A stretch of DNA of 64,000 bases, from positions 2,356,001 through 2,420,000 of the forward strand of contig NC_003910.7 in the NCBI RefSeq assembly GCF_000012325.1, written 5' to 3'. The number at the start of each line of letters is the position of its first letter. Positions within the stretch are counted from its first letter, which is position 1. Shown here one piece after another: positions 52,441 through 58,617 of this stretch. The notes under the pieces are model-generated. The model worked only from the letters and a program-made list of their open reading frames with translations, ran no database searches and was not told the DNA's origin. A program made the position numbers and the translations under genes. Source of the DNA: Colwellia psychrerythraea 34H (GTDB taxonomy: Bacteria; Pseudomonadota; Gammaproteobacteria; Enterobacterales; Alteromonadaceae).

Positions 52441-54940
52441 ATTGGCTTTTAAGTTATTCTCACGAGAGTTCAGGCGTGGTGAATTAACTATCATCTTTGC
52501 AGCAATAGCGTTGGCAGTACTTACCGTTTTTAGTTTGTCTGCAATTACAGAACGAATTGGTTTAAATATCGCACAAAAAAGTAGTGACTTTATTGCCGCC
52601 GATCGCCGTTTGTCTAGCAATCACGCTTTTGATCCACAACTACTAACAAAAGCAAACGAACTTGGGCTAAAAACGGCAAAGGTACTCTATTTTGACTCCA
52701 TGCTGTTTGCTAATGATGAATTGGTATTAGGCTCAGTAAAAGCGGGTTCTAATGCTTACCCTCTCAAAGGTAAGCTTACTATTAAGGACAACTTAACCAG
52801 CCAAGCATATGAAGTTGCTACTGGTCCTAAGGCGGGGTCAATTTGGCTTAGCGAAGGTTTATTTTATACGCTTAATGTAAAGGTCGGCGATAATGTTGAA
52901 TTAGGTGCGGGGATTTTTAACGTCAGTAAAGTGTTAGTGAAAGAGCCTGATGCGCCATTTTTCTCTTTATCTGGTAATAAACGCGTACTATTAAGCTATG
53001 AAGATATTCCTGTCACCAAAGCTGTTCAAGCGGGCAGCAGGGTATTTCATCGCCTACTTTTTGCTGGAAATGAACAACAGCTGAGTAATTACTATGCTTG
53101 GCTTAAGCCACAACTTAAAAGTAATCAAAACTGGGAAGGGATTAAAGATAGACAATCCCCTTTGGGAAACAATTTAGACCGAGCAGAGCGATTTCTATTA
53201 CTCGCAGGTTTATTTGGCATTATGTTAGCTGCCGTTGCGATGGCAGTTTCAGCGAAACGTTATTGTGAACGACAATATGATCCCGTTGCTATGATGAAAA
53301 CGCTCGGGGGTAGTCGTAAAGTTATTCGTAATATATTTCTTTTGCACCTTAGTTTAGTGACCGGCTTTTCTATTATCGCCGGTTTACTGTTAGGCTTTAT
53401 TCTGCAAACCATTGGTGCTGATTATTTAGCAAACTTCATGGGCACTGAGCTACCACAAGCAGGCATGCGTCCTTGGTTATTATCTGGTTTTATTGGGCTA
53501 ATTTGCGCGTTAATGTTTTCCCTTAAACCCTTACTCGATTTATTTGATATTCCTCCACTGCGTGTCTTACGTCGAAACTTAGGTGATACCCTCGCACTGA
53601 GTCGACTTCATCTTTTCCTCTCGTTTATGACTATTTTTGTTTTAATGTGGTTATTTAGTGGTGAGATCGTTACCACCTTAATTTTATTTGCCTCTACTTT
53701 ATTAGTGATTGCTGTTTTATTTGGTATATCTCGATTATTATTTGCTGCTGGGCGCAGTTTAGGGCTTAGACCTGGCTCTAGTTGGTCATTAGCGATAGCG
53801 ACATTACAAAAAAGAGCCAATGCTAATGCGATTCAACTGATCAGTTTCGCGTTAGCAATTAAGTTAATGCTATTTTTGGTTGTTTTAAAAAATGACATCA
53901 TTACAGACTGGCAAATGCAAGTTCCACCTAATGCTCCTAATATGTTTATCATTAATATTAGTGAGCAAGAAGTCGATCCAATTACGCAGTTTTTTACCGA
54001 TAACAACATTGCCCATGAAGCGTTTTATCCTGTTTTTAGCGGACGAGTTGATGCGGTTAATGGTGAAGAGTTTGCTCGAAGCGTCTCAAAGCAAGAAGGC
54101 GAAGAAAAAGATGAAGACGCGAGAGAAGGGGTCAACAGAGAGCCTAACTTAACTTGGTTAGAGTCTTTACCAGAAGGTAATGAAATAACGGAAGGAAAAT
54201 GGTTCACGAATGGAGATACTGGTGATGAGATTGAAGTGTCCGTTTTTGATGGTTGGCAAGAAACGCTCGGGCTAAAGCTGGGCGATACCATCACTCTATT
54301 AGTTAATGAACAACCAATAGAGGCCAAGGTTACTAGTTTTAGAAGTGTTGACTGGGGATCACTAAAACCTAATTTTGTTATGATTTTAAGCCCGAATATG
54401 GCTGGTAATATACCAGTAACCTACTTTAGTGCTGCGAAATTGGAAGATAAACATACCAAGGATATTAGCCATTTATTACAACGTTACCCAACGATAAGTA
54501 TGATTGATATCAAATCTCAAATAGAGCAAGCCCAATCGATTATTGCGCAAGTCTCCTTAGCGATAGGCTTTGTTTTATCAATTGTATTGATAAGTGGTGC
54601 TTTAGTGCTTGTTTCACAGGTGCAAGCAAGTTTGGCAGAACGTATGCAAGAAGTGGTGATATTACGAACCCTAGGAGCTAAAGGCCGACTGATCAAACTT
54701 GCAACGCTTTATGAATTCATGCTATTGGGAGCTATCGCTGGCCTAGTTGCGGCAATAGTAAGTGATGTGGCTTTACTGGTCATTCAACAACAACTCTTTA
54801 ATGTTGAAGGCCGAATGCATCCATATATTTGGTTATTAGGACCGTTAAGTGGCGCTATTTTTGTTTCTGCTATTGGTTATTTTATGGTGGCAAGAACTAT
54901 GAGACAAAATACCCAAGGCCTATTAAGAAAGATTGCTTAA
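52430..54940 (+). CDS. ybbP: ABC transporter permease YbbP
   Basis: This 836-residue type VII (MacB/LolCE-like) permease has an N-terminal helix (LTIIFAAIALAVLTVFSLSA), a periplasmic domain and a first FtsX core (LLLAGLFGIMLAAVAMAVSA). Membrane pairs follow near residues 300-480, then a second periplasmic domain and a C-terminal FtsX core (LAIGFVLSIVLISGALVLVSQ, EVVILRTLGAKG). GAAGGAG precedes ATG 52430, and translation is coupled to ybbA. A charged stretch near residues 545-565 (KQEGEEKDEDAREGVN) looks like a local insertion. Confidence 0.94.
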   Translation: MWVKLAFKLFSREFRRGELTIIFAAIALAVLTVFSLSAITERIGLNIAQKSSDFIAADRRLSSNHAFDPQLLTKANELGLKTAKVLYFDSMLFANDELVLGSVKAGSNAYPLKGKLTIKDNLTSQAYEVATGPKAGSIWLSEGLFYTLNVKVGDNVELGAGIFNVSKVLVKEPDAPFFSLSGNKRVLLSYEDIPVTKAVQAGSRVFHRLLFAGNEQQLSNYYAWLKPQLKSNQNWEGIKDRQSPLGNNLDRAERFLLLAGLFGIMLAAVAMAVSAKRYCERQYDPVAMMKTLGGSRKVIRNIFLLHLSLVTGFSIIAGLLLGFILQTIGADYLANFMGTELPQAGMRPWLLSGFIGLICALMFSLKPLLDLFDIPPLRVLRRNLGDTLALSRLHLFLSFMTIFVLMWLFSGEIVTTLILFASTLLVIAVLFGISRLLFAAGRSLGLRPGSSWSLAIATLQKRANANAIQLISFALAIKLMLFLVVLKNDIITDWQMQVPPNAPNMFIINISEQEVDPITQFFTDNNIAHEAFYPVFSGRVDAVNGEEFARSVSKQEGEEKDEDAREGVNREPNLTWLESLPEGNEITEGKWFTNGDTGDEIEVSVFDGWQETLGLKLGDTITLLVNEQPIEAKVTSFRSVDWGSLKPNFVMILSPNMAGNIPVTYFSAAKLEDKHTKDISHLLQRYPTISMIDIKSQIEQAQSIIAQVSLAIGFVLSIVLISGALVLVSQVQASLAERMQEVVILRTLGAKGRLIKLATLYEFMLLGAIAGLVAAIVSDVALLVIQQQLFNVEGRMHPYIWLLGPLSGAIFVSAIGYFMVARTMRQNTQGLLRKIA

Positions 54941-55086: not shown

Positions 55087-56151
55087 ATGGTTTCAAGTTC
55101 AAATAATAGCTCTATTGCGAAAGCATTTGTAACAGTCGCCGCTATTTTTATCATTTTTGCGGGTATTAAAACCGCGGCTAATATTTTAGTGCCGTTTTTA
55201 CTTTCAGTATTTATCGCCATCATCTGTAACCCATTAATCAATAAAGCCAGTGAGTATAAAATACCAAAGGCTGTTTCTGTCATTTTTGTTATAGTTGTCT
55301 TTGTTACTATGGCTGTGTTTTTAACGGGATTAGTGGGCAGCTCTTTAAATGAGCTTTCTCAGCAGATACCTCAGTACCGAATACAACTCAAAGAACAATT
55401 TACTTGGTTAACAAGTTTCCTTAATAGTCATGACATCCAACTTTCTTCATCGATAGTGACTGAATATTTTGACCCTGCTGCAGCGATGGGGTTAGCGGCT
55501 GATATGTTATCCAGTTTTGGCTCTGTGATGACAAACTTGTTTTTGATTATTTTAACTGTTGTTTTCATGTTGTTTGAATCATCGACGATTCCACATAAAT
55601 TACATTTAGCATTAGATGATCCTCAAATGCGTTTAAATCAAATTGAACGGTTTTTATCTTCGGTGAATCAGTATATAGCCATTAAAACACTGGTTAGTAT
55701 TGCCACGGGTTGTATTGTGTCACTGATGTTATGGATCTTTGGTTTAGACTTCTTTTTACTCTGGGGTGTATTAGCGTTTCTGCTTAATTATATACCAAAT
55801 ATCGGTTCTATTATTGCCGCAGTGCCACCAATGACGCTCGCTATCTTACAATTAAGCATAGGGGAGGCCGGCGCTATCGGTTTAGGTTTTGTTTTAATAA
55901 ATATGGTAATGGGTAATATTATTGAGCCTAGGTATCTAGGTAAAGGTCTAGGGCTATCGACTTTAGTTGTTTTCTTATCTCTAATTTTTTGGGGATGGTT
56001 GCTTGGTACTGTAGGTATGCTATTAAGTGTGCCACTGACCATGATATTAAAGATAGGGTTAGAAAGCTCACCAGAAGGTCGTTGGTTGGCTGTCATGCTA
56101 AGTGATGAAGTTGAACTGGTCGATAAAACCGAGCAAGCTTTACTTGATTGA
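55087..56151 (+). CDS. AI-2E/PerM-family membrane transporter
   Basis: This 354-residue protein of the AI-2E transporter family (PerM, TqsA, YdiK) has about seven to eight membrane helices. A central amphipathic region (LNELSQQIPQYRIQLKEQFT) and the family block LNYIPNIGSIIAAVPPMTLAIL are present, with NIIEPRYLGKGLGLSTLVVFLSLIFWGWLLG further on. Substrates differ across the family, so no specific role is assigned. Its 3' end is the left side of the duplicated junction at 56029-56284, and a degenerate second copy lies at about 57870-58141. Confidence 0.88.
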   Translation: MVSSSNNSSIAKAFVTVAAIFIIFAGIKTAANILVPFLLSVFIAIICNPLINKASEYKIPKAVSVIFVIVVFVTMAVFLTGLVGSSLNELSQQIPQYRIQLKEQFTWLTSFLNSHDIQLSSSIVTEYFDPAAAMGLAADMLSSFGSVMTNLFLIILTVVFMLFESSTIPHKLHLALDDPQMRLNQIERFLSSVNQYIAIKTLVSIATGCIVSLMLWIFGLDFFLLWGVLAFLLNYIPNIGSIIAAVPPMTLAILQLSIGEAGAIGLGFVLINMVMGNIIEPRYLGKGLGLSTLVVFLSLIFWGWLLGTVGMLLSVPLTMILKIGLESSPEGRWLAVMLSDEVELVDKTEQALLD

Positions 56152-56284
56152 GAGCTTGATTAAAAGCTTGATTAAGATGTTGCTCGGCTAACTTTCTAAA
56201 GAGTGGGATTAGTCGTTATAATTTTACTGAGTTCGGTGATTCTGTTCTGGCTTGATTGTACATAACAAGTTTTATAGACCAAGT
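56029..56284. repeat. Duplicated perM/LprI junction, copy 1
   Basis: These 256 bp are identical by eye to 58019-58274, at an offset of 1990 bp in direct orientation. They hold the last 120 bp of the permease gene, the short convergent gap and the last 85-90 bp of the LprI/DUF1311 gene. Similarity continues with mismatches to about 56320 (TGATATTACGAAATATTGCC against CGATACTGCTAGGTATTGCC). Confidence 0.93.
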
Positions 56285-56330
56285 CTGCACCTCTTTCGGG
56301 TGATATTACGAAATATTGCCCATTGGCTAT
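56196..56330 (-). pseudogene. Truncated copy of the LprI/DUF1311 gene
   Basis: On the minus strand this encodes SPERGADLVYKTCYVQSSQN and ITELSKIITTNPTL, identical to the C-terminus of the intact gene at 58186-58617. Upstream of SPERG the similarity ends within about 15 codons, and the frame runs into a low-complexity Tyr/Phe stretch from simple repeats. It is a remnant, not a gene. Confidence 0.85.
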
Positions 56331-56332
56331 TT

Positions 56333-56387
56333 CATAAAAACAATAAAAACAATAAAAACAATAAAAATAATAAAAATAATAAATGTT
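56333..56387 (+). repeat. AT-rich simple repeats
   Basis: About five 9-bp units follow in tandem: AAAAACAAT three times, then AAAAATAAT twice. They lie at the edge of the truncated LprI copy, just before the lipoprotein gene, and mark the left end of the inserted segment's unique DNA. Confidence 0.8.
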
Positions 56388-56459
56388 TAATGTAAAATAC
56401 CGATGAACCACTATAGTTAGGGAATAACTTTGTCATTTATGTAAAACAAGGGAATGTAT

Positions 56460-57812
56460 ATGTTTATTACATCGATAAGACTATTTTTACTCACCAGTAT
56501 GCTGTTAGGTGCGGTTGCTTGTAATAGCGACAAAAAGTTTAAAGAGCCTGATCAATCTGTGGCAGTTGCTAATTTAGCTCCGAGTGTTGCCATAAATAGT
56601 GAGTTAGAAGTTGTTGAAGGACAAACTTTATTTTTGGATGGCAGTGAAAGTACAGATCCTGAAAATGAAGCTTTGACTTATCAATGGTCACAGATTTCAG
56701 GTGTGTCTATAGCGCTTATAGGTAGTGATAATGCCGAGAGCAGTTTTATTGCTACTGAAGTAGATAAAGATGAAACTTTAGGGATACAGCTAACAGCGAC
56801 TGATCCACAAGGTAATTCATCAATGGCTTTATTTGAAGTAACTATTAAAAATAGGATTGAGATCAGCGAAATTGCATTTGTAGATAACAATCTATCTGAA
56901 TGTGTGAAAGCCTTGAACGTAAAGTATGCTGACCAAATTACCGAACTAATTTGTATTGATAAAGGAATTGTTGATGCTAATGAAGTTGCAATGTTAGAAA
57001 ATTTAGTACTATTAAATTTAACTAATAATGAACTAAAAACGATTGATATAAGCAAAAACAAGGCATTACGTCATCTTTGGTTGGGTCACAATGGATTGTC
57101 TGTAATCGATGTCACACATAATAAGCTTTTAGAGATTATTTGGTTGTATTTTACTGAGATAAGTGAAATTGATGTATCACAAAATCAGCTGTTAACGTCG
57201 CTTATTTTAAGTGGTAAAAATCTCACGTCATTAAACGTAGAAAAAAATGTAGAACTAGTTGATTTATACATAAGCTTTACATCAATTAGTACTTTAGATC
57301 TAAATAACAATGAAAAATTAGTCAGCTTAAGAGCGGAAGATACACCATTAACTTCTATTGATATATCAAATAATAAATTGTTAGAGGCGTTTTATACTAG
57401 CATTAATGAATTAACATTCCTCGACCTGAGTCAAAATGTGAAATTAAAAGAATTGCACTTATGGAAAAACAAGCTAGCTTCTATAGACGTTTCCGCAAAT
57501 GTAGAACTGACTTATTTACTTATATCGGATAACCAATTATCTTCGATTGATATTTATCAAAATACAAAATTGACATTTTTGACGCTATCAAAAAATATGC
57601 TGTCAACAGTTAATGTTTCTCAAAATACAGAGTTAACGACTTTAGATTTATGGCGGAATAATTTTACCAATTTAGATGTTAGTATGAACACTAAATTAAG
57701 CAAATTAGTCATACGTGAAAACCCCTTTTTTAGTTGTACAAATATTGAGATTATAACCGAACAACTTCCTGGAATTGAGTTTTTATATGATACAAATTGT
57801 CAGAATCCATAA
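56460..57812 (+). CDS. Leucine-rich-repeat lipoprotein with PKD-like domain
   Basis: This protein of about 450 residues has a lipoprotein signal peptide (LFLLTSMLLGAVAC, lipobox Cys near residue 21) and one PKD/REJ-like Ig fold (APSVAINSELEVVEGQTLFLDG, ESTDPENEALTYQWSQISG). From about residue 145 to the end there are some twelve leucine-rich repeats of about 21 residues, on the pattern LxxLxLxxNxLxxIDVSxN, like internalin J. A Cys pair near the C-terminus may cap the solenoid. GGGA lies six bases before ATG 56460, and ATG 56454 is too close to it. It is inserted between duplicated junction sequences. A surface binding role is likely; the ligand is unknown. Confidence 0.82.
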   Translation: MFITSIRLFLLTSMLLGAVACNSDKKFKEPDQSVAVANLAPSVAINSELEVVEGQTLFLDGSESTDPENEALTYQWSQISGVSIALIGSDNAESSFIATEVDKDETLGIQLTATDPQGNSSMALFEVTIKNRIEISEIAFVDNNLSECVKALNVKYADQITELICIDKGIVDANEVAMLENLVLLNLTNNELKTIDISKNKALRHLWLGHNGLSVIDVTHNKLLEIIWLYFTEISEIDVSQNQLLTSLILSGKNLTSLNVEKNVELVDLYISFTSISTLDLNNNEKLVSLRAEDTPLTSIDISNNKLLEAFYTSINELTFLDLSQNVKLKELHLWKNKLASIDVSANVELTYLLISDNQLSSIDIYQNTKLTFLTLSKNMLSTVNVSQNTELTTLDLWRNNFTNLDVSMNTKLSKLVIRENPFFSCTNIEIITEQLPGIEFLYDTNCQNP

Positions 57813-57869
57813 CTAGTCAATGCACTGACACTAGTTTATGCAATATTGTAGGTTGCAGGTTTTGTTATT

Positions 57870-58141
57870 TGCTCAATGTCTATCATTGCGGCGGTAACAA
57901 AAAAGGATACTGATCATTTTACAATTAAGTAAAGGAGAAACTATAGCTATAGCCTTTCGACTTTAGGCGTTTCCTTATTACTGTTTTTGGGGCTGGTTAT
58001 TGAGAGTGTGTTATTAACGTGCCACTGACCATGATATTAAAGATAGGGTTAGAAAGCTCACCAGAAGGTCGTTGGTTGGCTGTCATGCTAAGTGATGAAG
58101 TTGAACTGGTCGATAAAACCGAGCAAGCTTTACTTGATTGA
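57870..58141 (+). pseudogene. Degenerate 3' fragment of the AI-2E/PerM-family gene
   Basis: From 58019 this is identical to the intact gene's 3' end. To the left it is diverged: TCGACTTTAGGCGTTTCCTT aligns with TCGACTTTAGTTGTTTTCTT, but with small deletions and frameshifts. SIIAAV near 57875 matches the intact SIIAAV block with a large deletion between. No start is present. It is a decayed allele, not a functional gene. Confidence 0.8.
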
Positions 58142-58274
58142 GAGCTTGATTAAAAGCTTGATTAAGATGTTGCTCGGCTAACTTTCTAAAGAGTGGGATT
58201 AGTCGTTATAATTTTACTGAGTTCGGTGATTCTGTTCTGGCTTGATTGTACATAACAAGTTTTATAGACCAAGT
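58019..58274. repeat. Duplicated perM/LprI junction, copy 2
   Basis: Direct repeat of 56029-56284, 1990 bp downstream, with no difference seen over 256 bp. It adjoins the intact LprI/DUF1311 gene on the right and the decayed permease fragment on the left, the mirror situation of copy 1. Confidence 0.93.
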
Positions 58275-58617
58275 CCGCACCTCTTTCGGGCGATACTGCT
58301 AGGTATTGCCAACGACAATCATTTTCCCTATAAGTAATAAAGTTATTTTGCGAACGCTTAAACATTTTTAAGGCAGAGTAACGGCCATTTACTAAGGCTT
58401 TCTCTTCTAAATTAAAGGTATGTAAATTTACCCAAGTTTGTAACTCTCGATCGACAAGGGATATCACACCATCTAAACACCTAGACATTGGAGCAGAAGA
58501 TATTTTCTCAGCATTTTGTTGCTGACACTCTTCAATGTTTTTGGCCGCATGAACAGGGTTAATCATCAATAAAGGACATAAAAATGTGGATGCTAAAAGT
58601 ATTTTATTACGGATCAT
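58186..58617 (-). CDS. LprI/DUF1311-family periplasmic protein
   Basis: This 143-residue secreted protein has a signal peptide (ILLASTFLCPLLMINPVHAA). An LprI-type domain follows, with Cys in ECQQQN, SRCLDG, NDCRWQ and KTCYV that probably form disulfides. The pattern with W(Q/R)Y and ERGADLVYKTC is characteristic. LprI of Mycobacterium inhibits lysozyme, but that function is not assured for this family. It converges on the permease gene, and its last part is duplicated at 56196-56330. Confidence 0.8.
   Translation of the reverse strand: MIRNKILLASTFLCPLLMINPVHAAKNIEECQQQNAEKISSAPMSRCLDGVISLVDRELQTWVNLHTFNLEEKALVNGRYSALKMFKRSQNNFITYRENDCRWQYLAVSPERGADLVYKTCYVQSSQNRITELSKIITTNPTL

Follow-up and report, generated by a model that had tools for sequence, protein, structure and literature searches.

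Structure of the permease/LprI locus

The window analysed in this work is a stretch of 64,000 nucleotides (64 kb) of the Colwellia psychrerythraea 34H genome, in which a gene for a leucine-rich repeat (LRR) lipoprotein was found between duplicated ends of two convergent host genes, an AI-2E-family permease gene and an LprI gene. The window's own genome, a single contig of 5,373,180 bp, is designated G000, and the other G-numbers denote genomes of the same genus.

An exact direct repeat of 257 bp was located at 56029-56285 and 58019-58275, with a start-to-start offset of 1990. The initial annotation of this DNA had described an exact duplication at the convergent 3' ends with the same offset, and only its length of 256 bp had to be corrected. 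The exact repeat took in the last 123 nt of the permease gene, the DNA between the two genes and the LprI 3' end. Comparison of the copies extended the similarity past the exact core to 292 nt in total at 98% identity (56029..56320 on the left and 58019..58310 on the right). An exact repeat of this length is far beyond chance. When the own 5.37-Mb genome was searched with positions 55940-56340, matches were obtained at the two repeat places only. Among direct-repeat families of at least 60 nt lying within 20 kb of each other in the window, only two more were found, and both corresponded to a near-identical tandem array of five tRNA-Asp genes at 76-779.

Both outer genes were intact: the permease gene on the left (55087..56151, plus strand; PF01594, E 2.4e-60) and the LprI gene on the right (58186..58617, minus strand; PF07007, E 3.4e-8) were 98% and 96% identical, respectively, in G043. 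The inner copies around the LRR gene were truncated. The left one (56186..56320, minus strand) retained LprI residues 101-143 at 86% identity (match 56199-56327), and no homology above that of shuffled sequences was detected beyond 56320 (score 26; shuffle mean 24.8, maximum 43). The right one, identified by sequence match (57942..58141, plus strand), retained permease residues 307-354 at 85% identity with one in-frame TGA. Decayed permease traces were also seen upstream of it, among them a weaker permease-like block on the plus strand at about 57879-57938, the score of which was reached by 3 of 500 dinucleotide shuffles. Hence, the open reading frames (ORFs) and the matched residues confirmed that, as initially annotated, the outer genes are intact, the inner LprI copy is truncated and the inner permease copy is frameshifted.

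Between the outer genes of G000, the ORFs of 50 aa or more were the LRR gene itself, a 71-aa frame that overlies the LprI remnant and one running antisense within the LRR gene; no recombinase-like gene was seen among them. The search for promoter- and terminator-like sites in 56100-58350 gave 5 and 0, respectively, against 10.2 and 0.7 expected, and the RNA fold of the junction had a z of -1.89, with 8 of 200 shuffles equally good. At about 56337-56383, in the DNA that separates the LprI remnant from the LRR gene, several near-repeats of the AACAATAAAA type follow one another; they were not seen in that form in the G045 cassette sequence described below.

The LRR lipoprotein and its relatives

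The LRR gene (56454..57812, plus strand), defined by its ORF and a domain search, encodes a protein of 452 aa (450 aa if translation starts at the second ATG). PKD and LRR domains were found in the product, and a lipobox-like signal was read by eye. Judged from the domains alone, the protein is probably lipid-anchored and displayed on the surface for binding. Repeats of 21 residues were matched 8 times by a loose and 6 times by a strict pattern, whereas 1000 shuffles gave averages of 0.07 and 0, respectively. The tandem repeats followed the form LxxLxLxxNxLxxLDLxxNxx, which defines the IRREKO class of 21-residue LRRs, where CPS_2313 is listed with this consensus (PMC2946307). According to map position, CPS_2313 is probably the LRR gene described here. 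The likeness to the IRREKO proteins lies in the form of the repeat, whereas flanking repeats and strain distribution are seemingly not treated in that paper. Within the own genome, the most similar other protein was an 837-aa open frame with LRRs (G000:C1:4052843-4055119) at 32% identity, perhaps the CPS_3882 of the same source, judged from map position only.

Further, relatives of the gene were sought in 39 genomes of the genus, which represent species-level comparisons and not strains of one species. A DNA search gave matches in 18 of them; besides G000 and G045, these were short matches of about 26-55 bp. In G045, a C. psychrerythraea draft, almost the full length of the gene was matched at 92% DNA identity. 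When GTDB genomes were scanned, a match was obtained on MAAF01000010.1 of C. psychrerythraea isolate 38_32_sub10_T18, taken to be contig C60 of G045. In a search of about 5.8 billion proteins, with 7,990 candidates scored, one close homolog besides the query was obtained (P0002, 88%), and the next match listed after it had 32% identity. Since P0002 differed from the G045 protein in 1 of 450 residues, it added no third lineage. The initial annotation had suggested a search for the same LRR gene beside decayed remnants elsewhere, and G045 proved to be the only such case besides the own genome among the 39.

The dN/dS ratio between G000 and G045 was 0.27 for the LRR gene, against 0.015-0.128 across the eight flanking genes compared. 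The LRR gene is thus constrained, more loosely than its neighbours. Phage origin was considered by way of viral contigs, where 7 pattern matches were obtained and 0 confirmed, hence no relative. Cargo of phages or plasmids was likewise rejected, as 21 plasmid and 15 phage records matched, each at less than 60% identity and none over more than 80% of the query. In the literature on C. psychrerythraea in combination with gene conversion or leucine-rich repeat, covered in part, no account of this insertion was met.

The junction in other Colwellia genomes

A close permease gene (at least 77% identity) was present in 34 of the 39 genomes, the own one included, and 5 had no close match. The permease and LprI genes were adjacent in 30 of these 34, with 20-233 bp between the matched codons. 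The comparison with genomes lacking the gene, which had been advised at the outset, thus yielded an empty site in most of them, G043, the closest relative at the locus, included; its site bore no scar. In the remaining 4 of 34, the LRR gene was found in two (G000 and G045), LprI was not found in G052, and a 43-kb island with type VI secretion system (T6SS) genes lay between the same permease and LprI genes in G011 (G011:C1, about 2058100-2101200; L171-L173). Ten ORFs of the island were scanned: four matched families named for T6SS or IcmF, one carried integrase-core (rve) domains, and two further ones were ClpB-like and Rhs-like, both being proteins at home in a T6SS context. Within 46 kb around the island, no flanking repeats were found beyond the self match. 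The junction was closed in G015, a relative of G011.

The LRR gene is therefore an accessory insert at a conserved convergent junction, and this junction tolerates accessory genes. As the same place holds a T6SS island in another species, it may be useful for seeking accessory genes in Colwellia.

Divergence of the repeat copies

The order in G045 was the permease gene, an LprI remnant with a decayed insertion sequence (IS), the LRR gene and the contig end; a second contig started with the same 95 bp, followed by a permease remnant and the intact LprI gene. The two G045 repeat copies were 83% identical over 258 columns. The first 88 bp were free of differences, and 25 fell in the ~115 compared columns that follow before the IS; 16 further differing sites inside the IS were left out of the 25. 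The inner permease was heavily decayed, and its deletions differed between G000 and G045. The inner right end of G045 scored 28 against the G000 permease, not above chance (shuffle mean 31.1), yet residues 307-354 were matched there in another search.

Two further elements were noted in the G045 cassette. The decayed IS inside the LprI remnant (L098:2312-2876) is an integrase-core (rve) fragment, with only short matches elsewhere in G045 and in G007 and none in G000 or G043. The other is a repeat resembling a miniature inverted-repeat transposable element (MITE; L099:2919-3184, minus strand), which includes the 95 bp and one copy of which breaks the assembly within the cassette. It had at least 56 matches in G000, 59 in G043, 58 in G045 and 56 in G007, and its terminal inverted repeats were recognized by eye only.

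At the 25 sites differing between the G045 copies, G000 carried 15 right-type states, 9 left-type states and 1 of neither type. Five of the left-type states lay at 56172-56203, where G043 has the right state, and directly after 56285 the left copy departed from the native type. Because G045 has the same layout with diverged copies, the identity in G000 is best read as later homogenisation: if the layout is the same as that of G045 by descent or transfer, the exact identity would come from a later exchange between the copies. Going by these sequence comparisons, the perfect match in G000 most likely resulted from later copying between the repeat copies and not from a recent insertion. Gene conversion, which the initial annotation had offered as its second option, fits the diverged G045 copies and the mixed G000 states best. 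It had also held that a relative with the same structure and fully diverged repeats would speak against its insertion account; G045 comes largely to this, save for the first 88 bp. Identical flanking repeats are a poor clock, because the layout, as seen from a relative, is older than their identity would imply.

Descent of the cassette and its flanks

The synonymous divergence (dS) between G000 and G045 was 0.20 (0.14-0.26) for the LRR gene, 0.35 (0.29-0.41) for five right-flank genes and 0.55 (0.48-0.63) for two left-flank genes. The right-flank dS was at or below that of the LRR gene in a fraction of 0.0015 of 2000 bootstraps. This lower divergence of the LRR gene suggests movement between lineages. 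In the left-flank FtsX gene, 31 sites grouped G000 with G043, against 10 and 12 for the other groupings, and in the permease gene 6 against 1 and 2; the LprI part was neutral (1, 0, 1), and the farther right flank gave no resolved grouping. In the concatenated tree, {G000, G043} was split off at 100. The gyrB locus favoured G000 with G045 (23 sites against 10 and 18). Along the locus, G000 resembled G043 for the most part between 55050 and the repeats and once more beyond 58350, and bins farther out (54600-54900 and 59550) leaned to G045. This pattern fits a cassette that may have moved between lineages with its boundaries in or near the repeats. The empty site of G043 would reflect either loss or a cassette never gained; loss is possible, and the low dS of the LRR gene leans to the latter.

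The inner LprI remnant grouped with G007 and G046 (approximate likelihood-ratio test (SH-aLRT) 92, ultrafast bootstrap (UFBoot) 81), and for the LprI part native origin was marginally rejected by the approximately unbiased (AU) test (p 0.045). In the alignment, the remnant had states in common with G007 and G046 and lacked those that G000, G043 and G045 share in their LprI genes. Local scores of the G000 remnants placed other genomes above the own gene; for the LprI remnant the best was G007 (60), and the own LprI locus did not rank among the top eight (44 or more). The inner LprI remnant was probably not copied from the native gene. Foreign origin of the inner ends is favoured and a single crossover with foreign DNA plausible, but neither is proven. 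Thus, the geometry of the Campbell-type insertion initially annotated was upheld, and the foreign nature of the inner ends only in part.

Proposed history of the cassette

We proposed that the cassette entered by a single crossover in the permease 3' end, with a donor molecule on which the LRR gene lay together with a permease/LprI junction from a related lineage. A single crossover with such a junction would leave the outer genes intact and the inner ends truncated and non-native. A circular donor would not be required, since linear DNA could give the same product. Homologous recombination in or close to the repeats would later have carried the cassette from one of the two lineages, G000 and G045, to the other, and gene conversion between the two G000 repeats would then have made the copies identical. 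The repeats may still serve as a substrate for deletion of the LRR gene by homologous recombination, and the on/off population considered in the initial annotation would be a hypothetical outcome of such excision. Taken as a whole, this account of entry, inter-lineage passage and conversion stands about evenly balanced between being right and wrong.

Several observations weigh against it. With both remnants combined, native origin was not rejected (p 0.18). The permease remnant alone was too decayed to be placed on the tree (branch 1.84). With the permease part only, the native grouping was rejected, but so, to the same degree, was a group of G000, G043 and G045 from which the remnant had been left out. 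The matching was flat and indicated no single donor, the G000 remnant being 70.4% identical to G048, 70.0% to G045 and G007 and 68.5% to the own sequence, and the G045 segment before the IS scored best with the G000 locus (88), with G007 second (80). The dS of single right-flank genes (LprI, YciI, IspA and two that we take to be MoxR and cox) overlapped the LRR interval, and the G000 bin 58200-58350 was mixed (4 against 5). Left-type and right-type states alternated in the G000 copies, so no single clean conversion tract is claimed. Finally, G045 is a draft (94% complete, 3% contamination) with the cassette on two contigs joined only by the 95-bp repeat overlap.

A cassette already present in the common ancestor of G000, G043 and G045, with clean loss from G043 by recombination between the repeats, is somewhat unlikely. 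It would agree with the scarless G043 site and with the flanks near the locus, where G000 and G043 are sisters and G045 falls outside, so that vertical gain needs a loss in G043. However, between G000 and G045 the flanks are more diverged than the LRR gene, and the lineages recombine anyway, as the gyrB locus indicates. Nor was an excised junction seen, although the material offered no way to search for one.

Rather doubtful is a home-made tandem duplication of the native junction in an ancestor, with the LRR gene captured at the joint, for example during break repair, and the inner ends decayed afterwards. The same geometry would be produced, and both the combined p of 0.18 and the nearly flat matching percentages are in its favour, whereas the G007/G046 states of the LprI remnant, its lack of the G000/G043/G045 states and the AU p of 0.045 argue against it; a duplication older than those states would still fit.

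The boldest reading, which we regard as improbable, is that of a recombinase-free mobile cassette. The spare target junction would let the LRR gene leave as a circle and re-enter any relative at the same junction, while conversion would keep the repeats alike; G000 would then have a G043-like background that received a G045-like cassette, the two boundaries of which fell within the repeats. If true, conversion between the repeats would preserve the ability of the cassette to move.

A recent single crossover with a circle in the G000 lineage, dated by the identical core as the initial annotation had first supposed, is very improbable. It accounts for the 257 identical bp, the intact outer and truncated inner genes and the empty site in the closest relative at the locus. 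Against it, the arrangement is shared by G045, where the repeats have diverged and both an IS remnant and a MITE-like repeat are present; the decay of the inner permease is far advanced, and its deletions are not the same in the two genomes; and a circle with a non-native junction would leave differing repeats unless converted.

Relation to known systems

Nothing at this locus needs a new mechanism, and known mechanisms suffice. In single-crossover (Campbell-type) insertion-duplication, intact outer genes and truncated inner copies are accompanied by direct repeats on both sides, and these features were all found at the LRR locus. The likeness lies in this geometry; in contrast, the repeats are not fresh, being diverged in G045 and apparently rewritten in G000, and no circular donor is known. 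A site-specific integrative element or composite transposon was rejected, as the bounding repeats are host gene ends and G000 has no recombinase or IS ORF of 50 aa or more between them. The IS remnant (rve) and the MITE-like repeat of G045 lie inside the cassette, not at its bounds.

Homology-facilitated illegitimate recombination has been proposed for effector modules of Vibrio cholerae (PMC5361080), where foreign genes likewise lie beside a homologous anchor and gene remnants are left; at the LRR locus, unlike there, both sides end in copies of one junction. The merodiploids formed by transformation of Streptococcus pneumoniae resemble the locus in having duplicated DNA around an inserted cassette, there by DNA uptake. 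Those duplications mostly span ~100-900 kb and require repeats that the chromosome already contains (PMC3784515), whereas only a few hundred bp are duplicated here.

The locus is best filed near the 'minimal mobile element' sites of Neisseria, the original description of which is reportedly that of Saunders and Snyder in 2002. Such a site has two conserved flanking genes, between which different whole-gene cassettes or none are found, incorporated solely by homologous recombination (PMC3898611). Here, the conserved flanking genes are the permease and LprI genes, adjacent in 30 of 34 genomes, and across species their junction holds the LRR gene in G000 and G045, the T6SS island in G011 or, in 30 genomes, nothing. 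Homologous recombination is the likely route for the LRR cassette because it contains no recombinase gene, and the dS and flank pattern fit; the G011 island holds an integrase-core (rve) gene. The likeness thus lies in a place between conserved genes that is empty or occupied by different genes in each genome. The LRR cassette differs in being flanked by duplicated ends of both neighbours, and its exchange by homologous recombination is what we infer here. Hence, a single accessory gene for a probable surface protein can sit between duplicated host gene ends without a mobility gene of its own.

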